A stretch of 45,857 nucleotides of DNA from Ruminococcus sp. (GTDB lineage: Bacteria; Bacillota; Clostridia; Oscillospirales; Ruminococcaceae). Below, piece by piece: positions 5,346-18,976 of this stretch; position 1 is the first letter of the stretch, and each line of letters begins with the position of its first letter. The stretch spans positions 1 to 45,857 of the forward strand of contig JAFTYF010000007.1 of assembly GCA_017461395.1 (NCBI GenBank), read 5' to 3'. The position numbers and the translations under genes were made by a program. The notes beneath the pieces were generated by a model. The model made no database searches, was not told the DNA's origin, and was given only the letters and a program-made list of their open reading frames with translations.

Positions 5346-6128
5346 CTATTTCTCTCTGAATTTTTCACGGTACTGCGCCGGAGATACGCAGGCATATTTT
5401 GCAAACGAGCGTGAAAAATATTCATAGCTCTGATATCCGCACATAAAGGCTATTTCCTTTACGGAATAATCTGTATTCAGCAGAAGCTGCTTGGCATACT
5501 GCATACGGCTGTTGAAAACGTCGTTTATGCACGAAATACCGAATTTATTTTTATAAAGACGCTGAAAATGCGATACTGAGATATTCAGCTTATCGGCAAC
5601 AACAGGAACAGACCAGTCAAATGACGGATTATCGTAGATTTCCTTCTTGATTTTATCGAGTTCTTCATCATAATAGTTGTGTTTTTTTCCTGAGCTTGGG
5701 GTTATACACTCGCTGATACAGCGCAGAATAGCCTTCATTACATGATTAAGCGTTTCATTTTTCACAGAAATATTCGAATTGAAAATTTCTGTACCGGCAT
5801 CAATAAGCTTTGATACGCTGTCGTCATTTAGCTTTATCGGCACATTATATTCAAGGCTGAGCGAATCTATAAACTCGCTGTCCTCGGTTTCAAGACTGAA
5901 GCGTACCCAGTCGTCAGCGTATTCCTCGCCGTCAGCGTAGAGGCAATGCGGCAGGCAGCTTTCGACAATAAAGGCAGTATTTTTCTCCACTCGATACTCC
6001 TTACTTCCCATTATCAGCCTTCCCTTTGTGCGTACAAGTATTATCTGCATACCGAAATGTCCGTTTGGCCGCTCAATGCAGAAGGTTTCGGGATGCTTCC
6101 AGTTCCATCCCATCTGATATATATGCAT
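5346..6128 (-). CDS. AraC-family transcriptional regulator
   Basis: About 260 residues with an N-terminal cupin-like sensing domain (about 10-140) and a C-terminal double helix-turn-helix. The first helix pair is in WSVPVVADKLNISVSHFQRL, and the AraC signature is in DYSVKEIAFMCGYQSYEYFS followed by SPAQYREKF. I prefer the ATG at 6128, which has AAAGGGG upstream, over an in-frame TTG at 6167. It is divergent from the rhamnogalacturonan lyase gene with about 270 bp between them, so it probably senses a pectin-derived sugar and controls that gene. AraC proteins of this layout control sugar-use genes in many Firmicutes; the ligand is an inference. Confidence 0.9.
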   Translation of the reverse strand: MHIYQMGWNWKHPETFCIERPNGHFGMQIILVRTKGRLIMGSKEYRVEKNTAFIVESCLPHCLYADGEEYADDWVRFSLETEDSEFIDSLSLEYNVPIKLNDDSVSKLIDAGTEIFNSNISVKNETLNHVMKAILRCISECITPSSGKKHNYYDEELDKIKKEIYDNPSFDWSVPVVADKLNISVSHFQRLYKNKFGISCINDVFNSRMQYAKQLLLNTDYSVKEIAFMCGYQSYEYFSRSFAKYACVSPAQYREKFREK

Positions 6129-6398: not shown

Positions 6399-9149
6399 AT
6401 GAAGAAATTCAGACGCTTGACATCCATGGCAGCCGCTCTTGCAATCAGCGCAGGCGCAATTGCAGCTCCGGCTCCCAAAACTCTCACTGCTGACGCAGCT
6501 TACGGCGTAGGCGGCACAGGCAAAAACATCGTTGAATACCTTAACAGAGGCATCACAGCGATCAACACAGGAAACGGTATGCTCGTAAGCTGGAGATACC
6601 TCGCTAACGACAGCGATACCGCAGAATTCAGACTTTATCGTGACAACAACCTCATCTACACAAGTAAGTCAGGCGACGCTACCTGCTACCTCGACAAGAG
6701 CGGAAAGAGCAGCTCAGAATACAGAGTTGACTACGTTTCCGGCGGAGCTGTTGTAAATTCTGAAAAGTGCAGCTTCACATCAAACAAAGACTACTTCGAT
6801 ATCCCCCTCAGCGTTCCGACAGGATCAGGATGCACTTACTCTGCAAATGACTGTTCTGTCGGAGACGTTGACGGCGACGGAACTTATGAAATATTCGTCA
6901 AGTGGGACCCCTCCAACCAGAAGGACAACTCCCAGGACGGTAATACAGGAAATGTGTACATTGACTGTTATACCCTCAAGGGCAAGCGTCTCTGGCGAGT
7001 TGACCTCGGCAGAAATATCCGTGCCGGCGCTCACTATACACAGTTCCTCGTTGCTGACTTCGACTGCGACGGTAAGGCTGAAATGACTTGTAAGACAGCT
7101 GACGGTACTGTTGACGGTAAAGGCAAGGTTATCGGCGACGGAAGCAAAAACTACCGCAATGGCAGCGGTTACATCCTCTCAGGTCCCGAATATTACACAC
7201 TCTTTGATGGTGCTACAGGTAAGGCACTTGATACAGTTGAATACGCTTTCCCAAGAGGAAAGGTAAGCGACTGGGGCGATAACTACGGAAACCGTGTTGA
7301 CCGTTTCCTTGGTGCTGTTGTTTACTGCGACGGCGTTAAGCCCTCTGCTGTTTCTGTAAGAGGTTACTATACCCGTATGACAGCTGTTGCTTACGATGTA
7401 GTTAACAAGAAGCTCGTTAAGCGCTGGACTTTTGATTCAGGAAACGATCCCAAGAAGGGCTACCACAACGGTAACCACAACTGTATGCCGGGCGACGTTG
7501 ACAACGACGGCAAGCAGGAACTTGTACTCGGTTCAACAGCTATTGATGATAATGGTAAGCTCCTCTGGTGCAACAATCAGGGACACGGTGACGCAATGCA
7601 CCTCGGTGACTTCCTCCCCAACAGAGAAGGACTTGAACTCTGGATGTGCCATGAAAACAGTCCTTACGGCGTATCTCTTATCGACGCTAAGACAGGTAAG
7701 AACATCTTCCACAAGAATCATTCGAAGGATACAGGAAGAGCCTGCTGCGGCAATATCTACTCCAAGAACCCCGGTGCTGAATTCTGGGGTGCTACAGGAA
7801 ATGATATCTTCGACGGCTCAGGTAAGACAATTTCTACAACTAAGCCTGCTCAGAACTTCATGATTTACTGGGACGGCGACCTTGAGCGTGAAATCCTCGA
7901 CGGTACAAAGATTGACGATTTTACAGACGGCGGCAAGCTTAACAGACTTCTTACAGCTGACGGATGTGCTGCAAACAACGGTTCCAAGAACAACCCTGGT
8001 CTCGCTGCTGATATTTTCGGTGACTGGCGTGAAGAACTCGTAGTAAGAACAAGCGACAGCAAGTACCTCAGAGTTTACTCCACAAAGTATACAACAGCTA
8101 CTCGTCTTACAACTCTTATGCACGACGTTCACTACCGTACACAGGCTGCCGGTGAACAGAACTGCTACAACCAGCCTGCACACACAAGCTTCTACCTCGG
8201 TTCTGAAGCTAAGCTTCCTGAAAGACCTAAGGTAACTCTCAACAAGAACGGTGTAAGCACTCCCCCTACACCTGTTGATCCTATCGTAACAACAACAGTT
8301 AATACACCTGATCCTATCGTTACAACAACTACAGCTAAGCCTGTTACACCTGTAGAGCCTTCTCAGCTCGAGGACGGCGCTGTTTACATGATCAAGAACA
8401 AGAACAGCGGTCTCTACATGGAGGTTGCTGAGCAGAATGCAGCAAACAGCGCTAATGTTCAGCAGGCTTCTGCAAACGGCGCAGCTAACGGCAACTCATG
8501 GAAGGCTGTATCTGCTGGAAACGGCTACTACTACCTCTACACTCAGCTCGGCGACGGAAAGACATACGTTCTTGACGTTTCCGGAAAGAAAACTGACGAC
8601 GGTACAAACGTTGAGATCTACACATACAAGGGCGGCGAAAATCAGCAGTTCAAGTTTGTGAAGAACGATGACGGTACTTATACTATCCTCACAAAGATCA
8701 CAGGCGACGCTTCCGCTGTTGAAGTAAACGGAAAGTCAACTGAATCAGGTGCAAATATCCAGCAGTGGGCAGCTAACGGCGGAAACAATCAGAAGTGGGT
8801 TCTTGAAAAAGCTGATGTAAACAATCAGACTACTACAACCCAGCCAGCTCCCCAGACTACTACAACTCAGCCGACAACAACTTCATCTCAGCCCATTTCA
8901 ACTCAGACAACTACAACTCCGGCTCCTGCTTCAAAGCTCGGCGACGCAAACGGCGATGGTCAGGTTCTTCTGAATGACTCTATCATCATTCTTCAGTATC
9001 TCGGAAATCCTGACGCATATCCGCTTTCCGATCAAGCTAAGGCAAATGCTGACGTAAGCAATCCTGGTGACGGAATCACAAACAAGGACGCTCTTGCTAT
9101 CCAAAGATATATTCTTAAGATTATTCCCAGCCTGCCGGATTATTCATAA
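6399..9149 (+). CDS. Secreted rhamnogalacturonan lyase (PL11-type) with ricin-type CBM and dockerin
   Basis: A protein of 916 residues when started at ATG 6399, which follows AGGAGG by 8 bases and begins a classic signal peptide (MKKFRRLTSMAAALAIS, likely cut near ADA-A at 33). An upstream in-frame extension to 6306 would run through the hairpin and is rejected. The catalytic part (about 36-630) reads as family PL11: GVGGTGKNIVEYLNRG, then propeller loops with Ca-binding DVDGDG, DFDCDGKAEM and DVDNDGKQEL. These enzymes cleave the rhamnogalacturonan I backbone of pectin by elimination. After a Thr/Pro linker comes a ricin-type trefoil (about 665-820, CBM13-like, with QQ.W repeats), a second TTTTQP linker and a dockerin (about 846-916, two DxNxDG-type loops). 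The dockerin should attach the enzyme to a cell-surface cellulosome. Confidence 0.93.
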   Translation: MKKFRRLTSMAAALAISAGAIAAPAPKTLTADAAYGVGGTGKNIVEYLNRGITAINTGNGMLVSWRYLANDSDTAEFRLYRDNNLIYTSKSGDATCYLDKSGKSSSEYRVDYVSGGAVVNSEKCSFTSNKDYFDIPLSVPTGSGCTYSANDCSVGDVDGDGTYEIFVKWDPSNQKDNSQDGNTGNVYIDCYTLKGKRLWRVDLGRNIRAGAHYTQFLVADFDCDGKAEMTCKTADGTVDGKGKVIGDGSKNYRNGSGYILSGPEYYTLFDGATGKALDTVEYAFPRGKVSDWGDNYGNRVDRFLGAVVYCDGVKPSAVSVRGYYTRMTAVAYDVVNKKLVKRWTFDSGNDPKKGYHNGNHNCMPGDVDNDGKQELVLGSTAIDDNGKLLWCNNQGHGDAMHLGDFLPNREGLELWMCHENSPYGVSLIDAKTGKNIFHKNHSKDTGRACCGNIYSKNPGAEFWGATGNDIFDGSGKTISTTKPAQNFMIYWDGDLEREILDGTKIDDFTDGGKLNRLLTADGCAANNGSKNNPGLAADIFGDWREELVVRTSDSKYLRVYSTKYTTATRLTTLMHDVHYRTQAAGEQNCYNQPAHTSFYLGSEAKLPERPKVTLNKNGVSTPPTPVDPIVTTTVNTPDPIVTTTTAKPVTPVEPSQLEDGAVYMIKNKNSGLYMEVAEQNAANSANVQQASANGAANGNSWKAVSAGNGYYYLYTQLGDGKTYVLDVSGKKTDDGTNVEIYTYKGGENQQFKFVKNDDGTYTILTKITGDASAVEVNGKSTESGANIQQWAANGGNNQKWVLEKADVNNQTTTTQPAPQTTTTQPTTTSSQPISTQTTTTPAPASKLGDANGDGQVLLNDSIIILQYLGNPDAYPLSDQAKANADVSNPGDGITNKDALAIQRYILKIIPSLPDYS

Positions 9150-9163
9150 GCTTCAGAAAGTAA

Positions 9164-9195
9164 AAAAACCGTACATCCTCGGATGTACGGTTTTT
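9164..9195. terminator. Bidirectional terminator between convergent genes
   Basis: A perfect 15-bp stem, AAAAACCGTACATCC (9164-9178) and GGATGTACGGTTTTT (9181-9195), has a 2-nt loop and A/T flanks on both sides. It serves the lyase on the plus strand and the propeller-dockerin gene on the minus strand. Confidence 0.92.
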
Positions 9196-9197
9196 CG

Positions 9198-9371
9198 TTA
9201 TGCTGTGAGTTCAATTTTCATCAGACACAAATCGAACACATCAAGCTGACTATCATTGATTAGATTACCTGCTTTCCAGTTGATAATATCTCCTGCGCCG
9301 ATAAGCCATTTCTGGAGCATTACAGCATCGGCTATATTAAAGCTTCCGTCTGCATTTACATCGCCTCTTAT
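9198..9371 (-). repeat. Dockerin-coding repeat, copy A
   Basis: The 57-codon dockerin here is nearly the same as copy B at 10676-10849 in both protein (RGDVNADGSFNIADAVMLQ against RGDVNTDGSFNIADAVMLQ) and DNA, including a long identical stretch around TTCTGGAGCATTACAGCATC. It indicates recent duplication or gene conversion. Confidence 0.85.
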
Positions 9372-10616
9372 GGTATAAGGGAAGAAATCTGCACCAAGTT
9401 CGTTGATGTCAGAATTCAGTTCAGAAAGTGGAGTAATATTGCTGCCATCATAGCAGTAAAGATCATAGCTGCCGTTCATCGTACTGCTGAAAATCACCTT
9501 ACCGCTGTCTATAGGACAGGCATCGGAGCAGTCGTATTTATCCGAGTTGATTGGAAGCTCGTAAAGCTTTTTGCCGTCCCAGCGCACCAGCTGATCGCAG
9601 TGATTATCCTTGCTGTACCATTTTGTGAAGTACAGGTCATTGCCGTTTACAATGGGATAATATGCATTCACACCGTTTTCGCTGTAGATCGTGCTGATTT
9701 TTCCGGAAGCAATATCCATAGCGTAAATTGAGCCGATACCCTCCTTATAGCCAGTGTAGTAAATAGTTTTTCCGTCAGCGGAGAAGTCCGGCATTGCCTC
9801 CTCAGCGATATCGTCAGTCAGCATGGTAACTTCCATTGTTTTCACGTCAAGCAGCGCAAGATCATAAGCGAAGCCGTTTATATCGTTATTCCACCTGCCG
9901 CGCTTGAAAACGATGCTTTTTCCGTCCGGCGACCATTTCGGATCCTCGTTGCGGAATCCGCTGTTCTGCGTGAGATTTATGGTTTTTCCGTTTTCAGCAA
10001 TGAAAATATCCCACTCGTCAGCCTTGCTGTCTATTGCCATAAAGGTTATCTGATCGGGAGAAGTTCCGAAGCTTCCGTTCATAGCGTGGATAAAATCGCC
10101 CGTAATTTCATCTGTTTTTCCGTCAGGATTGCGCAGATATAGTTTGCTGTCAAGTGCGGAATAATTGCTGTAGCTGTGCCACAAAAGCCAGCCTTCGGGA
10201 ATTTCAGCCGATGCACTTTCCGTCAGCGACAGCAGATAGATAAGCGGAGAATTCCAGTATATCGTAATCTCATTTGTGGAATAGCTTCCATCATCATCGA
10301 CATAACACTTATCCGGCGGCACATTTTTAAGATGTTTCTGTGCTGCTGGATCAGCAAGATCAGAATTTACTCCGCCGACAAGCATTCCTGTCATAGCCGT
10401 TCCCTTTGCGATAGACGGACGATGATGCGGATGCTCCGGAGAAGCCGCCGCATCCTTGTGAGCATAATAGCTCCACCCTTTAGCATCATTGTCAAAGGTA
10501 GAATTTGTAATGAGATTTTCTGATTCAGCGTAAGGCGTCATATATCCGGCAGCACCAGTAAGCAATGCCGCTGAACATATTATTGCCGTACAGCGTTTTA
10601 GAAATTGTTTTTTCAT
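9198..10616 (-). CDS. Secreted chimera: GH9 C-terminal fragment, TolB-like propeller, dockerin
   Basis: A 472-residue protein with a signal peptide (about 1-30) and ATG at 10616 after AGGAGG. Residues about 34-55 resemble the start of a CBM4/22-like module (NLITNSTFDNDAKGW). Residues about 60-135 match only the last part of a GH9 catalytic module: HPHHRPS, GMLVGG, and KCYVDDDGSYSTNEITIY, parallel to KCYIDSDAEYTTNENTIY in the neighbouring GH9 enzyme. The DAGD motif with the GH9 catalytic Asp is absent. Residues about 150-410 contain PD40/TolB-type propeller repeats (PKWSPDGKSIVF, PDFSADGKTIYYTG). A dockerin fills about 416-472. It looks like a GH9 gene with a large internal loss joined to a propeller. 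Hydrolase activity is unlikely; a binding or scaffolding role is an inference. Confidence 0.8.
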   Translation of the reverse strand: MKKQFLKRCTAIICSAALLTGAAGYMTPYAESENLITNSTFDNDAKGWSYYAHKDAAASPEHPHHRPSIAKGTAMTGMLVGGVNSDLADPAAQKHLKNVPPDKCYVDDDGSYSTNEITIYWNSPLIYLLSLTESASAEIPEGWLLWHSYSNYSALDSKLYLRNPDGKTDEITGDFIHAMNGSFGTSPDQITFMAIDSKADEWDIFIAENGKTINLTQNSGFRNEDPKWSPDGKSIVFKRGRWNNDINGFAYDLALLDVKTMEVTMLTDDIAEEAMPDFSADGKTIYYTGYKEGIGSIYAMDIASGKISTIYSENGVNAYYPIVNGNDLYFTKWYSKDNHCDQLVRWDGKKLYELPINSDKYDCSDACPIDSGKVIFSSTMNGSYDLYCYDGSNITPLSELNSDINELGADFFPYTIRGDVNADGSFNIADAVMLQKWLIGAGDIINWKAGNLINDSQLDVFDLCLMKIELTA

Positions 10617-10675: not shown

Positions 10676-10849
10676 TTATTTTGTAAGTTCCGTTTTCATG
10701 AGACAGAGGTCGAACACATCAAGCTTATTATCGCTGAGCAGATCTCCTGCCTTCCAGTTGATAATGTTTCCTGCGCCGATAAGCCACTTCTGGAGCATTA
10801 CAGCATCGGCAATATTAAAGCTTCCGTCTGTGTTAACGTCGCCCCTGAT
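10676..10849 (-). repeat. Dockerin-coding repeat, copy B
   Basis: Second copy of the 57-codon dockerin unit described at 9198-9371, same length and same reading frame. Confidence 0.85.
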
Positions 10850-13195
10850 AATCGCCGGCTCATTCTGTGAAATCATCGCCGCTGTCAGGAAAATCATAGC
10901 TGCATTTCCGTAAATCGTGTTCTCATTTGTTGTATATTCTGCATCGCTGTCGATATAGCATTTTCCAATATACTTTGAAAGATGCGGATTATTATGATTA
11001 TTTGCGCCCTCTGTAAAATATCCGGCAGGACACTGATACGGTTCAAGCTTTGCATCCTTGGAATATATAGCGCTGTAGATATTCTCGACGCTGTTCTCGC
11101 CGAAGCCGGACACATAGCTGAATGAGATAGGATTTACGCCAAGAAGATAGTGAAAATGCCTTTCGATGACATCACGGCTTTCATCCTTCACCTCGCCGTA
11201 TGCGGCAAGATCGCCAAGTGTAAGCGTCATGGCTGTCTGGGCGACATACTTATTTGAGCCCCACCAGAATCCCCAAGTGGGAATTATAAGTCCCCAGTTA
11301 TCGTTTTTAAGATATCTTGTGCGCCATTCTGTGTACTGTTCAAAGACGTCCTTTATCGCTGGATCAGCGTTTTCGTTGTTGTAGAGGTAGTGGAAAAATC
11401 CGAGGAACGATCTTGCACTGTGGCTGTAGCTTATTGAAGCGGCTTTGAAGCACTGGTTGATATTTTCATTCTGACAGTTTTCGAGCAGATATTCCTCATA
11501 CTCAGAGGTATCTCCTCCCGTAAGTGCTGTTGCTCTGTAGAGCGCTCCTGCCGCCTGAAATGTACTGCGTTCAAAATCAGCTTTTTTGAAGGTGTATGTA
11601 CGATTTGCCGCACCTATTGAGGTATTCATTTTATTGGAAGGATCGTTTATCCATTTCCACGCACGAAGCGATGTATCAAGGCACTGCTGAGCAAAATCAG
11701 CATACTCAGGGAATTCCCTGTAGATCATGTACGCATGAGCAAGAACTGCCGCCATATCCGCAGTCGCAAGGTGACATCTCAGATCAGTTTCGGACTTGTC
11801 TGAATTGTGATCGGATGTTTTGTACAGTGTATCCTCAATGTAGATAGTTTTTGTAGTCGTGTCGTAATTTGCCGCTGTATAGAACGAACCGTCTTTGCTG
11901 CGGTGTTCAAGCTTAAGAAGCATATCAAGCTCGAATTTTGCTTCAGCAAGGATTCCGGGAGCCTTTACATAAAGCGGATTTTCAGGATCCTTTTCAGGAA
12001 TATTCATTTCAAGATCAGTGAAGACTTCCGGATAAAGCTCATACGCAAAAAGCAGATCGCTGACGGAATTTGCTCCGGGAGTAGTGTATTTTCCGTAATC
12101 GCCGGCATCATACCAGCCACCGGAAACGTCAAAGGTTTCAGCGTCTGGATTATCTCTGTCCGACCAGCGTTTAACAGTGATATCATCAGGATGAAGATTT
12201 TCTCTTGCAAATATTCCGGCATATTTTTCCTCGATATCAATGCCCTGACGCTGATAGTAGTAATATTTGGTCAGTCCGCTGAGGAGATCGTCATAAACGT
12301 TGCTGCCGACTTCAAAAGACGGAGATTTTATCATATTAAGATCAAGCTTTTCGTAGATATCACGGGGAGAGCGGACAGAAGGATCAAGTCCTGCATCAGG
12401 AATACGGATATAGTAGGTTCCAGCATCTTTCAGCTCGTCAAAATTAATTATATGAACCATTTCTCCGGAAAAAGTTTCCTCCAGCCTGCCCTCAGGGATT
12501 GTGCCGGAAAGTACAACATCTTCGTTCACGGCGTCAATTATCTCATAGGTTTTGCCGGCCAGAGAACCAAATTTTTCAAAATAGCTGATTCGGGCAGATT
12601 TTTTGGAATTTACGGGATATCCTACCTGATCGACCTTTATAACAGGATACTGCCGTTCATCATCGGTCGAGGAAATCTTTACATTGCGGAGCGAAAGTGT
12701 TGTATTTTTCGGAACAGCGCTGACATAAACCATGCGGAAATTATCAAGGCTGAAGTCTGAATCCGGAAAAGCATCAACAAGCTCCTTGATTGAGAATGAG
12801 TAAGTTTTCCAGTTCGTATCGGCAGTAATATTAGCATATTTCGCAATATCGTTCCAACAGATACGCACCTCTGCGCCGTGATCATATGAAGCAAGCCCCA
12901 GTTTAAAAGGTACAGTTCCGCTGCCATTATTTTTTACTTCAAAGCTCAGAATACCATTATCGTAATAATCACGGATAGTCAGTGACGTCCAGTTAGTATT
13001 AGGAATAAGATTTTCACCGCCCCAGCTTAGTGTGGTCCAGTCTTTGCCATCGTTGTTGATAAGGATGGTCTGGAGCTGCAGACCGGGAGTTTCTTCGACT
13101 TCTGCAGCTGTCACAGCTGAAGAAGAAAGCGAGGAAAAGATTATGACAGCACTGATAGCCGCTGCTGTGAGACGTTTGCGAATTGAATTTTTCAT
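10676..13195 (-). CDS. Secreted GH9 endoglucanase with N-terminal CBM-like and Ig-like modules and dockerin
   Basis: An 839-residue protein from ATG 13195, preceded by AGAGGTG and starting a signal peptide (MKNSIRKRLTAAAISAVII). An 18-residue upstream extension is unlikely. Modules in order: a beta-sandwich CBM-like region (about 35-165), a CelD_N-type Ig-like domain (about 180-265, IKVDQVGYPVNSKKSARIS), a GH9 (alpha/alpha)6 catalytic module (about 275-775) and a dockerin (783-839). The catalytic Asp pair is in GGWYDAGDYGKY, and the acid Glu is in YTTNENTIY. GH9 enzymes hydrolyse beta-1,4-glucan with inversion. The dockerin is almost identical to that of the next gene. It is transcribed from the consensus promoter at 13271-13299 and may share a message with the chimera, since only 59 bp separate them and no terminator is seen. 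Confidence 0.92.
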   Translation of the reverse strand: MKNSIRKRLTAAAISAVIIFSSLSSSAVTAAEVEETPGLQLQTILINNDGKDWTTLSWGGENLIPNTNWTSLTIRDYYDNGILSFEVKNNGSGTVPFKLGLASYDHGAEVRICWNDIAKYANITADTNWKTYSFSIKELVDAFPDSDFSLDNFRMVYVSAVPKNTTLSLRNVKISSTDDERQYPVIKVDQVGYPVNSKKSARISYFEKFGSLAGKTYEIIDAVNEDVVLSGTIPEGRLEETFSGEMVHIINFDELKDAGTYYIRIPDAGLDPSVRSPRDIYEKLDLNMIKSPSFEVGSNVYDDLLSGLTKYYYYQRQGIDIEEKYAGIFARENLHPDDITVKRWSDRDNPDAETFDVSGGWYDAGDYGKYTTPGANSVSDLLFAYELYPEVFTDLEMNIPEKDPENPLYVKAPGILAEAKFELDMLLKLEHRSKDGSFYTAANYDTTTKTIYIEDTLYKTSDHNSDKSETDLRCHLATADMAAVLAHAYMIYREFPEYADFAQQCLDTSLRAWKWINDPSNKMNTSIGAANRTYTFKKADFERSTFQAAGALYRATALTGGDTSEYEEYLLENCQNENINQCFKAASISYSHSARSFLGFFHYLYNNENADPAIKDVFEQYTEWRTRYLKNDNWGLIIPTWGFWWGSNKYVAQTAMTLTLGDLAAYGEVKDESRDVIERHFHYLLGVNPISFSYVSGFGENSVENIYSAIYSKDAKLEPYQCPAGYFTEGANNHNNPHLSKYIGKCYIDSDAEYTTNENTIYGNAAMIFLTAAMISQNEPAIIRGDVNTDGSFNIADAVMLQKWLIGAGNIINWKAGDLLSDNKLDVFDLCLMKTELTK

Positions 13196-13270
13196 ATCAC
13201 TGCACCTCTTTATAAGAAATAGAATATTTTTGATATTATAATTATGCAATATTTCGATACAATCAATATA

Positions 13271-14151: not shown

Positions 14152-14216
14152 GTTTACTCTTATTAAGGCACCGTTCACGGAAAAAAGCGTGACGGGGAGG
14201 CTAATATACATATAAT
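14152..14216 (+). promoter_or_regulatory. LytTR-type promoter P4
   Basis: Half-sites GTTTACTCT (14152) and GTTCACGGA (14173) start 21 bp apart, and TATAAT (14211-14216) begins 38 bp after the second half-site. Spacing and half-site sequence match the three promoters upstream of the biosynthetic operon to within 1 bp. This suggests that the gene at 14329 belongs to the same LytTR regulon. Confidence 0.65.
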
Positions 14217-14833: not shown

Positions 14834-16123
14834 TTATATCTCTCTATTGAGCAGAAGTTCTGTTTCGAGAATAAATTTATTGTCGGACACTGAGACATGG
14901 GCGGAACCGTTGTATTTTTTTGCGGTCTTGACTATATTAGCCACGCCGAATCCATGACAGGTCTTATCATCCTTTGATGTTTTCAGTTCGCTTCCTTTTT
15001 TGATGTCCACCTTTTCAAATACTGGATTTATAGCCTTGAAGAAGAAATATCCCTGCTTGAAGTCGGATTCAACTTTTATCTCCTTTTTCTCGTTGCCGGT
15101 ATCCTTGGCACAGGCTTCGATAGCGTTATCGAGGGCATTTGCCATAATAGTGCAGAGATCGGTGTTTTTTATTCCGTTTGTAGGGACGTATCCGCTGAAA
15201 GTTATCCTTGAGTTGCAGGCGGCAGCCTTCTCGTTCTTATCGCTCAGAAGTGCGTCTGCAATGATATTTCCTGTATCAAAGTTCTTTTTTTCAGTGTAGG
15301 ACATATTTTCTATGTCGTTCATATATTCCAGAGCGTTTTCGACTTCATTTTCTGCCAGCAGGCTTTTGAGACAGAGGAGATGGTTCTTGAAGTCGTGGCG
15401 GAAGCTCCTGAATTCAGTATAAATGTTGTTGATCTTCTCGTAGTAGCTGACCTGAGTTTCAAGCTGCTTTGAGAGTATAAACGATATCTGTTTGTTCTCG
15501 TGTTCGGATATGCTGACCTTTAGTACCCAGTAAACGATCATTATCATGAATATGAAGGCTGGAAGCAGCATCACCTTGGAGATATCTCCGTATTTCGGAT
15601 CTATGGAGGCGAATATCACAAGGTTCATAACATACAGGAATATGAGTATTACAGCATAGAGCTTCTTTGGAAGCATTTGGATATATTCATAGAATATATC
15701 CCAGAGGTTTTTCTTTTTGGTGTATAGCAGTACTGATCCCAGAATCATTGATTCCAGCAGGAAGGCTGCGATGCTGCGCCAAGTCTTGTCCGGTATCAGC
15801 AGAGTGAGGACAGTGTCGTAATTTGAGCTGGTGACCATTGACAGCAGGCAAACATATATCACCTTAAGGTTAAGTTTTCCGAATATAAGCGAGAAGAATA
15901 TCATTTTTCCTGTTATGGCCAGCAGCACTATGAGCACTCTCAGCAACGTTGGTATAGCTGATGCTGGAAGAAGTACTGAAGCAGATGTGAGTGAACACAT
16001 CAGCAGGCATACTATATTGAATATCCGCCCGTGAGCCGGTTTCATCTTCAGGAACGCGCACATTGATCTGAATATTACTGAACATAGTATAAAGTTGGAT
16101 ATAAAGTAGATGATGTATTCCAT
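14834..16123 (-). CDS. AgrC-like sensor histidine kinase (GHKL type)
   Basis: A 429-residue protein. About 200 N-terminal residues form six or seven membrane segments with short loops, as in AgrC, PlnB and BlpH-type peptide-pheromone receptors. The dimerisation helix has FRSFRHDFKNHL with the phospho-acceptor His near 243, the form typical of the AgrC/CitA-like HPK10 group. The GHKL ATPase domain shows N-box IMANALDNAIEAC and HGFGVANIV. Four bases separate it from the LytTR regulator gene upstream, so both are made together. It sits next to two tiny candidate peptide genes, so it is the likely receptor for them. Known family members sense secreted peptides; the ligand here is an inference. 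Confidence 0.9.
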   Translation of the reverse strand: MEYIIYFISNFILCSVIFRSMCAFLKMKPAHGRIFNIVCLLMCSLTSASVLLPASAIPTLLRVLIVLLAITGKMIFFSLIFGKLNLKVIYVCLLSMVTSSNYDTVLTLLIPDKTWRSIAAFLLESMILGSVLLYTKKKNLWDIFYEYIQMLPKKLYAVILIFLYVMNLVIFASIDPKYGDISKVMLLPAFIFMIMIVYWVLKVSISEHENKQISFILSKQLETQVSYYEKINNIYTEFRSFRHDFKNHLLCLKSLLAENEVENALEYMNDIENMSYTEKKNFDTGNIIADALLSDKNEKAAACNSRITFSGYVPTNGIKNTDLCTIMANALDNAIEACAKDTGNEKKEIKVESDFKQGYFFFKAINPVFEKVDIKKGSELKTSKDDKTCHGFGVANIVKTAKKYNGSAHVSVSDNKFILETELLLNREI

Positions 16124-16127
16124 GATC

Positions 16128-16838
16128 TCAGCCCTTTAAGAAGTTGTAGCGTTTTACATAGTCCAGAAAAGCCTTTTTGAAAGGAGTATACTTCAGTTTG
16201 CTGATAAGGGCACGCTCCTTATTGTCGAAAAGTATATTTGCCGCAGTATGTGAAACGATATGTTTGAAGCTGACCAGATACGTTCTGTGGCTGCGGAAGA
16301 ATGAATCCTGCGGCAGCAGCTTTTCAAATTCCGAAAGGGTGTTCTTGTAGAGGATATTCTCATCAGTCGTTCTTATATAGCAATATTTGTCGGAGGCTTC
16401 GGCATATATTATGTCATCAATATTTATTCTCCGGTTGTCATTGTCTGTCTTTATTACTATATGGTGGTTGTCGTCGAGGCTTTTTAAGTAGTCATCCATG
16501 GCTGAGGCAAGTTTTTTTTCATCTATTGGCTTGAGCAGGAAGCGATATGTGTTCACTTCAAATGCATCGAAGACTATATGCGGGAAGCTTGTTAGAAAAA
16601 TTATAACAGCCTTGATGTTCTTGTCCCTGAGCTTGCGTGAGGTTTCGAGCCCGTCCAGACCGTCCATCTGGTAGTCCATAAATATTACATCGTATTCAAT
16701 AGGGCTTGCAAGAAGGTCGAAGCCGTTACAGTAATCGTCGTATACCAGATCGAGACTTCGTTTTATCGCATAATCTTCAAGATGTTTTTTCAGGTCTCTC
16801 CGCATAGCTGCCTTATCATCACAAATTGCTATCTTCAT
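16128..16838 (-). CDS. LytTR-family response regulator (AgrA-like)
   Basis: A 236-residue protein with a receiver domain (about 1-120: acidic ICDDK, phospho-acceptor Asp in VIFMDYQMDGLDG, Lys in FLLKPID) and a LytTR DNA-binding domain (about 140-235: IIYAEASDKYCYIRT, FFRSHRTYLVSFKHI). LytTR regulators bind pairs of short direct repeats about two helical turns apart. Four such pairs occur within 3 kb (14152, 16883, 17151, 17511). The ATG at 16838 is divergent from these promoters. It should activate the peptide genes, the aminotransferase operon and the 14329 gene, and through the 16883 site perhaps its own operon. Confidence 0.92.
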   Translation of the reverse strand: MKIAICDDKAAMRRDLKKHLEDYAIKRSLDLVYDDYCNGFDLLASPIEYDVIFMDYQMDGLDGLETSRKLRDKNIKAVIIFLTSFPHIVFDAFEVNTYRFLLKPIDEKKLASAMDDYLKSLDDNHHIVIKTDNDNRRINIDDIIYAEASDKYCYIRTTDENILYKNTLSEFEKLLPQDSFFRSHRTYLVSFKHIVSHTAANILFDNKERALISKLKYTPFKKAFLDYVKRYNFLKG

Positions 16839-16882: not shown

Positions 16883-16947
16883 GTTTACTCCAAAAAATGT
16901 CAGTTTACTTTGATTAAGTTGCCAAGAACCATAGAGAGTGGTAGAAT
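16883..16947 (+). promoter_or_regulatory. LytTR-type promoter P1
   Basis: Half-sites GTTTACTCC (16883) and GTTTACTTT (16903) start 20 bp apart; TAGAAT (16942-16947) begins 39 bp after the second. No good -35 is present, as expected for an activator-dependent promoter. It precedes the first tiny reading frame. It also lies about 45 bp from the divergent regulator gene and could serve autoregulation. Confidence 0.75.
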
Positions 16948-16996: not shown

Positions 16997-17032
16997 ATTG
17001 GTGAATTCTTGAATTTTATCTTTGGAAGATAA
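16997..17032 (+). CDS. Diverged copy of the tiny peptide gene, lacking an ATG
   Basis: A 12-codon frame aligned base for base with the frame at 17268-17303. The position of the ATG there is ATT here. The product would read (I/M)GEFLNFIFGR, with the same stop and the same last four residues. Three differences are silent third-position changes (GGT/GGC, TTT/TTC twice) and the nonsynonymous changes are E/G, L/W and N/D, a pattern that suggests coding constraint. Possible starts are ATT at 16997 or an in-frame CTG at 16988, which has GAAAG upstream. It may be a decayed paralogue or be translated at low level. Spacing to its -10 box (55 bp) matches the second copy (57 bp). Confidence 0.45.
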   Translation: MGEFLNFIFGR

Positions 17033-17036
17033 AATT
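17012..17036 (+). other. Hairpin over the end of the first tiny frame
   Basis: A perfect 11-bp stem AATTTTATCTT (17012-17022) and AAGATAAAATT (17026-17036) with a TGG loop spans the stop codon. A shorter version (ATCTT-CGG-AAGAT) occupies the same place in the second copy, so part of it follows from the shared codons. A transcript-end or stability role is possible. Confidence 0.5.
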
Positions 17037-17150
17037 ATACTCTCGTTAAATTATATCACAAATTCTACTGTCTGTCAATGGTTTGCTGGTGGAATGTCAC
17101 GGCAACAGCATTGGTTCACTTTATTGACATTAGAACAACTCCTCGTTCTT

Positions 17151-17216
17151 GTTTACTCCGGAAAAAGTCTCGTTTACTCCATATCAATTGAGAAAACGGG
17201 AATTATGAAATATAAT
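17151..17216 (+). promoter_or_regulatory. LytTR-type promoter P2
   Basis: Half-sites GTTTACTCC (17151) and GTTTACTCC (17172) are identical and start 21 bp apart; TATAAT (17211-17216) begins 39 bp after the second. It is the cleanest copy of the four and drives the 11-residue peptide gene. Confidence 0.82.
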
Positions 17217-17267
17217 AAGCACAACGAAACGGAAACGTTGAGAAACATACGGAAGGAAGTGCTAAAA

Positions 17268-17303
17268 ATGGGCGGATTCTGGGATTTCATCTTCGGAAGA
17301 TAA
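17268..17303 (+). CDS. Candidate signalling peptide, 11 aa (MGGFWDFIFGR)
   Basis: A 12-codon gene with ATG at 17268 preceded by GGAAGGA at 8-10 bases, 57 bp downstream of the P2 -10 box and followed by a terminator-like hairpin at 17340. The product is aromatic and hydrophobic with a C-terminal Arg. The frame stays open upstream through GTG 17259 and TTG 17238 to ATG 17206, but the last lies at the promoter -10, so a longer product of 14 or 21 residues is possible but not 32. The diverged duplicate at 16997 keeps length, stop and the FIFGR end. Its position beside an AgrC-like kinase and under a LytTR promoter suggests an autoinducing peptide. No AgrB-type processing enzyme is nearby. It does not resemble AgrD, and the function is inferred. 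Confidence 0.55.
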   Translation: MGGFWDFIFGR

Positions 17304-17339
17304 GAATGAACCGGCAGCTATGCCGTAACAGGGTTCTTC

Positions 17340-17375
17340 GGTTTCGCAGGAGCTGCGGAACCGATTTTGTTTCTG
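17340..17375 (+). terminator. Terminator-like hairpin after the peptide gene
   Basis: GGTTTCGCAG (17340-17349) pairs with CTGCGGAACC (17353-17362), ten pairs with one G-U, and is followed by GATTTTGTTTCTG. A smaller hairpin CGGCA/TGCCG is at 17312-17325. It would confine the P2 transcript to a short message of about 150 nt. Confidence 0.6.
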
Positions 17376-17510: not shown

Positions 17511-17576
17511 GTTTACTCCAGAAAATGTTTTGTTCACTCACATTTTGTTGTTGATCGCAGATGCAGGGGCTATAAT
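17511..17576 (+). promoter_or_regulatory. LytTR-type promoter P3 of the aminotransferase operon
   Basis: Half-sites GTTTACTCC (17511) and GTTCACTCA (17532) start 21 bp apart; TATAAT (17571-17576) begins 39 bp after the second, the same geometry as P1 and P2. The expected start near 17583 leaves a leader of about 70 nt to the ATG at 17654. Confidence 0.8.
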
Positions 17577-17653: not shown

Positions 17654-18976
17654 ATGGAATTTTCAAAAGAAGCAGGAAACAAAGTCTGGGCAGCTTTCAA
17701 GGATATGAAAGTATATCTTGAAAAGAGCTGCCGTATTCTGACAGATGTTGATTCCAATAACTACTACACAGACAGCAAGGGAAAGAAAATGTATGACGGA
17801 GTTTCAACGCTCCTCAATGCGAATATAGGACACTGCAACAAGGAGCTTATCGAAGCAGTGAACGAACAGTTCTTTCGTCTTGACAATACAACGTTATTTA
17901 CTACTACAAATGATGCGGCACTGAGATGTTCTGAAAAACTCTGTAAGCTTACAGGCGATCATTACTACAGCTGCTTTTTCACTAACAGTGGCTCTGAGGC
18001 CTGTGATACGGCAGTAAAGATAGTCAGGAAGTACGCTTATATGAAGGGGATGAAGACGTGTGGCATAGTTTCCCTGAAGGGTGCTTACCATGGCTCCAAT
18101 CTCACCGCTATGAAACTTGGTCAGGGACAGTATGAAAACGAGCAGTACTTCAATGACTGCTCAGGATACTATCAGATAGATGTTCCTTCATACGAAAGCG
18201 ATGAAGTGGAGATCAGAAAGTGTCTTGCTCAGTATGAAGATCTTATCCGCACAAAGGAGATCGGAGCAGTGTTCATGGAACTGATACAGCTTTCAAACGG
18301 TGTGAATATCCTACCAGAGAGCTTCGTAAAGGGAATGTACGATATCAGTAAGAAAAACAGTGTGCTGGTAGTCATTGATGAGGTGGCCACAGGTTTCGGA
18401 AGAACAGGAAAGATGTTCGCCTCCGAGCATTACGGCATCAGAGGGGACCTTATGATGTTTGCTAAGGGAGTGACCTCCGGATATTTCCCGATGGGAGGAG
18501 TGCTTGCCGTAAGAGAGGTGTATGAGGCCTTTGCAGGCGGCTCGGAAAAGCTCCTAGAAAACGGTTTCACCACCGGCGGACATCCAGTAGGATGTGTATC
18601 GGCGCTAAAAAATATCGAAATACTTGAAAGAGAGAATATGTCGGAAAACTCAGCAGAAATGGGCGGATACCTTCTCGGCAGACTGAAGGATGAGTTGGGC
18701 GGAAGCTTTCTCGTTGATGAGATCAGAGGAAAAGGTCTGATGCTTTCCATACTCTTCAATGATTATCAGATAATAGGTATGCCGGAGTTTGGCATTGCAG
18801 ATATACTCACAAATTTTGCTGCCGGAAGCGGTCTTCTCCTGTATCCGGACGGTCCGGATACAATGATAGTTGCACCGGTGCTGAATATAGGCAGAATGGA
18901 ATGTGACAATATAGCTGATATACTCAGGGACTGTATCGGAAAGCTGGAAAAATGCGTGAAAAGGAGAAATAAATAA
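17654..18976 (+). CDS. Class III aminotransferase (PLP-dependent)
   Basis: A 440-residue enzyme from ATG 17654, seven bases after AGGAGG. An in-frame extension to 17606 would place that site inside the gene. Motifs of fold-type I class III aminotransferases: FFTNSGSEACDTAVK (cofactor phosphate binding), AYHGS, VIDEVATGFGRTG with the pyridine-binding Asp near 242, and the Schiff-base Lys near 271 in MMFAKGVTSGYFPMGG. The family moves an amino group between an omega-amine or amino acid and a keto acid or aldehyde, or isomerises aminoaldehydes. As first gene after promoter P3, it probably makes the amine part or an amino-acyl precursor of the cluster product. The substrate is not readable. It overlaps the next gene by one base (TAATG). 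Confidence 0.92.
   Translation: MEFSKEAGNKVWAAFKDMKVYLEKSCRILTDVDSNNYYTDSKGKKMYDGVSTLLNANIGHCNKELIEAVNEQFFRLDNTTLFTTTNDAALRCSEKLCKLTGDHYYSCFFTNSGSEACDTAVKIVRKYAYMKGMKTCGIVSLKGAYHGSNLTAMKLGQGQYENEQYFNDCSGYYQIDVPSYESDEVEIRKCLAQYEDLIRTKEIGAVFMELIQLSNGVNILPESFVKGMYDISKKNSVLVVIDEVATGFGRTGKMFASEHYGIRGDLMMFAKGVTSGYFPMGGVLAVREVYEAFAGGSEKLLENGFTTGGHPVGCVSALKNIEILERENMSENSAEMGGYLLGRLKDELGGSFLVDEIRGKGLMLSILFNDYQIIGMPEFGIADILTNFAAGSGLLLYPDGPDTMIVAPVLNIGRMECDNIADILRDCIGKLEKCVKRRNK

Follow-up and report, generated by a model that had tools for sequence, protein, structure and literature searches.

Two 36-nt reading frames lie beside an AgrC-like sensor kinase and a LytTR response regulator in a Ruminococcus sp. 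genome (GCA_017461395.1), raising the question of whether frames this short can encode a peptide signal. The window, that is the whole stretch of DNA analysed, covers 45,857 nt of contig JAFTYF010000007.1 (positions 1–45,857, forward strand) and belongs to a genome of 2.08 Mb that is 93% complete (G000). An initial annotation had proposed the frames as a candidate peptide signal. The sequence checks reported here support that proposal, and from them we infer a pheromone role; one of the two copies turned out to be decayed, and a conserved GyrI-like partner gene had been overlooked in the gene inventory of the locus (Table 1).

Table 1. Features of the peptide locus, in window coordinates
Feature	Position	Strand	Remarks
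LytTR double box of the GyrI-like gene	14152..14180	+	14/16; -10 TATAAT 38 bp past the second half
GyrI-like (DUF5085-like) protein, 148 aa	14329..14775	+	from homologues and predicted fold
AgrC-like GHKL sensor kinase	14834..16123	-	seven helices ahead of a long linker helix
LytTR response regulator	16128..16838	-	domain match
LytTR double box of copy 1	16883..16910	+	-10 TAGAAT at 16942-16947
Peptide copy 1, decayed	16997..17032	+	first codon ATT, three missense differences from the relatives' intact copies, weaker Shine-Dalgarno
Consensus sigma-A promoter TTGACA-17-TATAAT	17050..17078	-	12/12; faces copy 1
LytTR double box of copy 2	17151..17179	+	16/16; -10 TATAAT at 17211-17216
Peptide copy 2, intact, MGGFWDFIFGR	17268..17303	+	ATG start; same peptide in relatives
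Intrinsic terminator of the copy-2 unit	17338..17364	+	12-pair stem, then T-run
LytTR double box of the operon	17511..17539	+	-10 TATAAT at 17571-17576
Class III aminotransferase, first gene of the operon	17654..18976	+	ATG behind AGGAGG; longest ORF from 17606

The two peptide copies and their relatives

The two frames were correctly located by the initial annotation; they align without gaps and share 29 of 36 bases. Copy 1 reads ATT GGT GAA TTC TTG AAT TTT ATC TTT GGA AGA TAA and copy 2 reads ATG GGC GGA TTC TGG GAT TTC ATC TTC GGA AGA TAA. Their differences had been listed accurately: besides the ATG/ATT first codon, three are silent and three are missense. They do not hold as evidence of constraint, since copy 1 is degenerate. 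A degenerate F-I-F-G-(R/S)-stop pattern occurs at two sites in the 2.08-Mb genome, namely copies 1 and 2, and the reversed control pattern has no match across the same genome.

The aminotransferase of the neighbouring operon was matched in 6 of 125 genomes of the genus; besides the window's own, the proteins of two genomes, G030 and G037 (on the contigs of loci L009 and L010), are 95% identical. The peptide frame is kept in both of these relatives having the operon. G030 carries three intact micro-ORFs and G037 two, every one of them starting with ATG and encoding MGGFWDFIFGR, in two DNA variants with two differences, both silent. First and later copies in these genomes have clearly distinct leaders, and the orthologous first copy in each has an ATG, encodes MGGFWDFIFGR and follows a better Shine-Dalgarno sequence than copy 1 of the window. 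By its sequence, copy 2 is thus an intact gene and copy 1 a decayed copy, and the reading of both as working genes was rejected. Because copy 1 has decayed, its three missense differences mean relaxed selection, and the evidence for constraint comes from the copies in relatives rather than from the window's pair.

Upstream of a LytTR gene in another genome (G016:C53, loci L015/L144), a frame encoding MGGFWDFIFGK reads through the usual stop to 20 aa. Judged by eye, the DNA past this peptide is similar to the 3' end of the aminotransferase gene in the window, so that a deletion seems to have taken out most of the locus.

A micro-ORF family adjoining LytTR genes

Relatives of the LytTR regulator were collected from 40 of 125 genomes of the genus (E ≤ 1e-30), 78 of 396 of the family (1e-45) and 16 of 394 of the order (1e-55). 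Frames equivalent to those of the window are found in these genomes, as anticipated: most LytTR genes of the same clade are adjoined upstream by a Shine-Dalgarno-led micro-ORF starting with ATG. The encoded peptides include MWDWLFG, MTWSTILDFLFGNK, MGDFLDWLFGGRR, MGNFLEWLFNGR, MWRYIWQIIFG, MGWYIWHIFFGW and MIWDILRSLFGRP, among others; MQDWFDWWGW is encoded on pRUMAL03 of R. albus 7, MSWLGYLWYWILGK by two tandem copies, and MYQFFKWISRWLLG comes from another family of the same order. Lengths range from 7 to 26 aa (median 13) among 48 distinct peptides, a list that was partly hand-picked.

We counted ORFs of 6–20 aa having a Shine-Dalgarno match of at least 5 and lying within 60–460 bp, and compared the counts with 100 dinucleotide shuffles. 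LytTR loci scoring 230 bits or more number 55; this threshold was set post hoc, after inspection of the data, and the window, L005 and L009 within the sample are close orthologues of one another. Such an ORF was present in 43 of the 55, and three of the 43 ORFs (L040, L041 and L067) differ from the peptide assigned to those loci; shuffles gave a mean of 6.8 and a maximum of 12. ORFs with at least 25% aromatic residues were present in 35 of the 55, with a shuffled mean of 1.15 and maximum of 4. Outside the clade, below 205 bits, 3 of 25 loci had an ORF (shuffles 2.1) and none had an aromatic one (shuffles 0.3). Between 205 and 230 bits ORFs were found in three of nine loci, counting the truncated duplicate L004 among the nine, and all three were aromatic. 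When ORFs were collected without regard to composition, which makes this the unbiased set, a Shine-Dalgarno match of at least 7 gave 27 ORFs in 54 loci where shuffled sets averaged 0.33, with 15.3% Trp against 0.6%, and a match of at least 5 gave 47 ORFs in 54 loci against 8.5, with 13.8% Trp against 1.2%. The composition of these ORFs is hydrophobic, aliphatic or aromatic, and W, F, I, L and G dominate.

On a wider look, no convincing micro-ORF was seen in 9 of the 55 clade loci, some loci spanning only about 1.5 kb on each side. These are L050, where the LytTR box precedes an unrelated longer ORF, L025/L153, L026, L060, L061, L038, L039, L068 and the second LytTR gene of L095, whose sole candidate, MKLWILLWR, is weak. 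Phage-borne spread was rejected, as the eight LytTR relatives in viral contigs are 23–30% identical and none has an aromatic micro-ORF. An extension to other orders of the class was likewise dropped; it yielded three matches of 207–224 bits, all in family f52 and none with an aromatic micro-ORF.

Substitutions in the family favour silent sites, a further expectation of the initial annotation that held. Nei-Gojobori-style pS/pN values are 0.35/0 for the GGFW cluster, 0.42/0.07 for TWST, 0.65/0.11 for GDFL, 1.15/0.11 for WRYIW, 0.43/0 for GWYIW, 0.24/0 for IWDIL, 0.27/0.03 for SWLG and 0.48/0.08 for QDW, so that pS exceeds pN in all eight clusters, which are small (two to five variants each). 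Adding window copy 1 to the GGFW cluster gives six nonsynonymous differences, and copy 1 is involved in all of them. These comparisons demonstrate coding constraint on the micro-ORF family at the level of sequence.

Genes of this size are easily overlooked. On pRUMAL03 (L011, NC_014826) the MQDWFDWWGW ORF lies at 5846–5878 (-), divergent from lytTR, and a second one, MWLWPWLP, at about 9145–9171 (+), behind a LytTR box and about 500 bp before huazacin-type RiPP genes; both are absent from the gene table of this replicon, which may be incomplete. Genes with a LytTR box on this plasmid comprise the two micro-ORFs, a GyrI-like gene at 8279–8740 and the huazacin cluster.

Promoters, kinase and GyrI-like partner

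Four LytTR promoters were found in the window, ahead of the GyrI-like gene, copy 1, copy 2 and the operon. The initial annotation had placed each copy after a LytTR-type promoter of its own, and each indeed starts 56–57 bp past the -10 box; this part of the promoter description stood, but the promoter at 14152, the copy-2 terminator and the sigma-A promoter facing copy 1 had been missed. At copies 1 and 2 the -10 box sits 39 bp past the second half of the double box, and over all four promoters of the window, that of the operon included, this distance is 38–39 bp. Across loci, half-sites resemble GTTTACTC and are spaced 21 bp start to start, and the distance from the start of the second half-site to the -10 box is mostly 39 bp and in some loci 44 bp, two values half a helical turn apart. 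Copy 2 forms a self-contained unit whose terminator precedes the operon promoter. In the window and in relatives peptide genes occur in two or three copies, each with its own box, and box-preceded extra peptide genes, for example MTWSTILDFLFGNN, lie on other contigs of G022 and G058.

A strict box/-10 pattern was matched in 19 of 125 genomes of the genus, one to three times each (in G002 and in G011 two matches fall on a single site); its reversal had no match in any of the 125. Two of the 19, G020 and G087, have no LytTR match at E ≤ 1e-30. These strict promoters are not exclusive to the module, several matches lying upstream of unrelated genes. Genes that follow box promoters at other loci include the GyrI-like gene, one radical-SAM gene (L156), genes for secreted M15 peptidases (L095, L164) and one of lectin/NlpC type (L167). 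At L117, L131, L133 and L120, LytTR-type box promoters lie off the module, before small proteins with signal-peptide-like starts.

The sigma-A promoter opposite copy 1 is probably that of the lytTR-kinase operon, whose transcription would then run through copy 1. Antisense sigma-A promoters with at least 11 of 12 consensus matches were found in 16 of 40 loci and reach 12 in eight of these; the one at L031 overlaps the end of the ORF. Only 2 of 800 shuffled controls reach 11, and none reaches 12. This set of 40 takes in window copy 1 and, except for L004, the loci whose ORF combines a Shine-Dalgarno match of 5 or more with an aromatic content of 20% or higher. The remaining 24 have fewer than 11 matches, and many of them are of the type in which the partner gene follows the peptide. 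As sequence features, the module, the promoter geometry and the face-to-face promoters are shown directly.

Both regulatory neighbours named in the initial annotation were confirmed, by GHKL/AgrC-like and LytTR matches. The kinase profile matches the catalytic module of S. aureus AgrC (E 6e-10), and the predicted seven-helix model (pLDDT 84, pTM 0.54) matches AgrC too. Among neighbour families, those present in five or more of 45 loci are LytTR (45), the kinase (44) and the GyrI-like partner (29), then an ABC ATPase (12), a radical SAM protein (6) and an 803-aa family (5); no RopB-clan (RRNPPA) gene was seen among the families at this level of recurrence. Three further ORF groups, in 18, 13 and 5 of the 45 loci, run antisense to LytTR or kinase genes and are shadow ORFs.

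Where LytTR proteins are 71–78% identical and the peptides differ, the sensor parts of the kinases are often only 22–37% identical and the catalytic halves 52–67%; as counterexamples, L165 keeps 51–56% sensor identity with L011, L164 and L095. Partial Mantel correlations with the peptides, which were assigned by hand, gave over 44 loci r = 0.11 (p = 0.008) for the sensor, r = 0.19 (p = 0.0015) for LytTR and -0.04 (p = 0.76) for the catalytic part. The idea of a clean kinase-peptide covariation is weakened by a sensor correlation smaller than that of LytTR, and with so weak a statistic the covariation is suggestive only.

The GyrI-like gene was found in 30 of 45 re-examined loci and is absent from the adjacent positions in 15. 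It lies on the same strand behind the peptide in 14 loci (12 at 2–27 nt and 2 at 223–229 nt), behind its own LytTR box in 11, and is otherwise placed in 5. The otherwise-placed group includes L149 solely for lack of an entered peptide; this locus is the second copy of L148, and genome G118 carries these two apparently identical modules on contigs C24 and C15, respectively. An iterated profile recovered homologues in 31 of 52 sources, several of them short or truncated. A Pfam scan of the 148-aa protein gave no match. The DUF5085 profile matched three of six homologues at 22–25 bits, below its curated cut-off of 30, and did not match the window's own protein. Sequence-profile matches to PDB entries are weak and include BmrR (E 0.66) and EcmrR (E 0.96). 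The AlphaFold2 model (pLDDT 91) matches CTR107, EcmrR, CtaZ, the albicidin-resistance protein STM3175 and GyrI, and the partner is thus predicted to have a GyrI-like fold of two SHS2 units.

In the passages of two papers that treat DUF5085 proteins, TipE is a cytoplasmic immunity protein (PMC10434224), and ExiA and ExiB are GyrI-like cytoplasmic immunity proteins, the cleft of ExiB being lined with hydrophobic residues and adapted to protein binding (PMC12744356); all of them target hydrophobic toxin segments in the cytoplasm. As described there, these proteins resemble the partner in size (about 150 aa), in the GyrI-like fold and in having a hydrophobic polypeptide encoded nearby. Their targets are parts of large type VII toxins (PMC10434224, PMC12744356), whereas the neighbour here is a micro-peptide in a two-component locus. 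For the partner we infer that its ligand is the aromatic micro-peptide.

A proposed circuit and its alternatives

In Agr systems, AgrB is a membrane peptidase and AgrD a propeptide with leader, a core containing Cys or Ser, and tail; AgrC is a multi-pass GHKL kinase, and the LytTR regulator has direct-repeat boxes upstream of an autoregulated promoter. The locus shares with AgrBDCA an AgrC-like kinase, a LytTR regulator, double-box promoters and an autoinduction architecture. However, as the initial annotation had noted, neither AgrB nor any likeness to AgrD is seen: PF04647 is unmatched in the window's genome, which also has no AgrD-like ORF. Of 18 genomes, five yielded no AgrB: G000 (93% complete), G016, G345, G126 and G431. 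AgrB matches occur in the remaining 13, by position none of them within the fetched module loci. Cys occurs in 7 of the 48 micro-peptides, and whole ORFs of 7–26 codons are unlike an AgrD propeptide. With AgrB and AgrD missing, an Agr system was rejected.

LCP/SIP systems, as described in passages of PMC10518010, consist of an ultrasmall ORF for an unleadered hydrophobic or aromatic peptide of 8–9 aa; the ORF adjoins its regulator, often in divergent orientation, and one of these systems controls a biosynthetic cluster. The module resembles them in its ultrasmall leaderless ORF, its hydrophobic/aromatic peptide and the adjoining regulator, and the 48 peptides of 7–26 aa likewise come from ultrasmall ORFs without leader or processing region. 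The LCP/SIP receptor is a cytosolic RRNPPA protein, whereas a membrane kinase and a LytTR regulator are the neighbours here; the terms 'two-component' and 'histidine kinase' do not appear in the main text of PMC10518010, and its relevant parts do not mention the GyrI-like partner that is present in our module. According to passages of PMC9426450, active pheromones of streptococcal Rgg/SHP and Rgg1518 systems have similarly Trp-rich C-termini such as IQLIWFETWFWG, but they derive from longer propeptides (33 aa for rio84) and are sensed by cytosolic Rgg proteins, unlike here.

We consider it probable that the locus forms an autoinducing circuit based on a leaderless micro-peptide, sensed by a two-component system and accompanied by a GyrI-like cytosolic peptide binder. 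The peptide is most likely a cell-to-cell signal that would switch on neighbouring genes. An ORF of 7–26 codons would constitute the entire signal, with neither export leader nor recurrent neighbouring maturation enzyme, and the hydrophobic Trp/Phe-rich peptide would leave the cell or insert in the membrane. The adjacent AgrC-like multi-helix kinase would sense it and activate the LytTR regulator, which in turn would bind the double box, with its half-site spacing of 21 bp, at 39 or 44 bp before the -10 box. LytTR would then switch on the peptide gene or genes, closing a positive feedback; the GyrI-like gene would be induced as well, together with a target operon that in the window is an aminotransferase/ketoacyl-synthase cluster. 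In the cytosol, the GyrI-like protein would bind the aromatic peptide as a holdase, for self-protection or as a threshold setter. In many loci the strong sigma-A promoter of lytTR-kinase faces the peptide gene, so that antisense transcripts would overlap, and this could sharpen the switch. Translation and secretion of the peptide, the kinase as its receptor and LytTR binding to the boxes are presumed in this scheme.

A broader proposal, whose chances we regard as evenly balanced, is that these loci form a separate class of Gram-positive quorum sensing, with leaderless Trp/Phe-rich micro-peptides, AgrC-type kinases, no maturation enzyme, a dedicated GyrI-like peptide binder and, in many loci, face-to-face antisense promoters. 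This class would occur in Ruminococcus, its family and other families of the order, and would control natural-product and secreted-protein genes. No published description of such a module was found in the full-text literature, covered mostly without subscription papers and without preprints. Among the AgrC-type membrane kinases of gut Clostridia there are many for which no ligand is known. If the proposal is true, the ligand is encoded next door, has 7–26 aa and can be synthesised, and is directly testable without enzymatic maturation. It would also carry the concept of leaderless peptides beyond cytosolic RRNPPA receptors into two-component systems, suggest a role as cytosolic peptide binder for the uncharacterised GyrI-like/DUF5085-like family, and offer simple chemical keys to Ruminococcus biosynthetic clusters.

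The same genes could be read differently. The micro-peptide might be membrane-active, as a tiny bacteriocin or by acting on the membrane of its producer. The GyrI-like protein would then be its immunity partner, and the two-component system would co-regulate the peptide while sensing something else. Hydrophobic, Trp-rich peptides would fit such a function, as would the immunity of TipE and ExiA/ExiB against membrane-active toxins, cytoplasmic in the passages concerned (PMC10434224, PMC12744356). The gap of 2–27 nt between peptide and partner in 12 of 45 loci points the same way, but the adjacent partner is missing in 15 of 45, and the constant association with kinase and LytTR and the box-driven promoters suit a signal better. 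Peptides of 7–8 aa are moreover short for membrane lysis, and we judge this reading unlikely. An attenuator, in which translation of a Trp-rich micro-ORF governs downstream transcription as in amino-acid operons, appears very unlikely. Trp-rich ORFs of 10–15 codons do resemble attenuation leaders, a terminator follows copy 2, and the next gene is 2–27 nt downstream in 12 loci. Nevertheless the operon of the window has its own LytTR promoter beyond that terminator, no co-oriented gene belongs to copy 1, orphan peptide copies lie on other contigs, and the peptides are constrained over their whole length and have no single-amino-acid runs.

We give very little credence to the micro-peptide being a RiPP-type substrate matured by enzymes of the neighbouring cluster into part of a product. 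A daptide-type RiPP aminotransferase is among the NCBIfam matches of the aminotransferase (227.9 bits, cut-off 450) and pRUMAL03 carries huazacin-type RiPP genes, but neighbours vary by locus, and beyond LytTR, kinase and partner only the ABC ATPase, radical SAM and 803-aa families and the shadow ORFs named above recur in at least 5 of 45 loci. That the ORFs arose by chance in a conserved regulatory region, 5' of lytTR and with two promoters, is scarcely credible. Lying between two conserved promoters in many loci, such DNA would be constrained anyway; the shuffle controls, the synonymous bias, the Shine-Dalgarno placement and the copies away from lytTR all speak for genes.

Downstream of copy 2, the target operon of the preferred autoinducing circuit includes aminotransferase and ABC transporter genes along with BtrH-like, ACP and ketoacyl-synthase ones. 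It opens a long co-oriented run (17654 to about 37413, +) holding the aminotransferase, the ABC transporter, two BtrH-like genes, the ACP and ketoacyl synthases, together with an SDR, a thioesterase and FAD oxidoreductases; this is a polyketide- or fatty-acid-like biosynthetic cluster. On the other side of the module, a full GH9 cellulase with dockerin (10676–13249) lies beside a 472-aa ORF (9198–10616, -) that combines a short GH9 C-terminal piece with PD40/DUF5050 matches and is a remnant or fusion.
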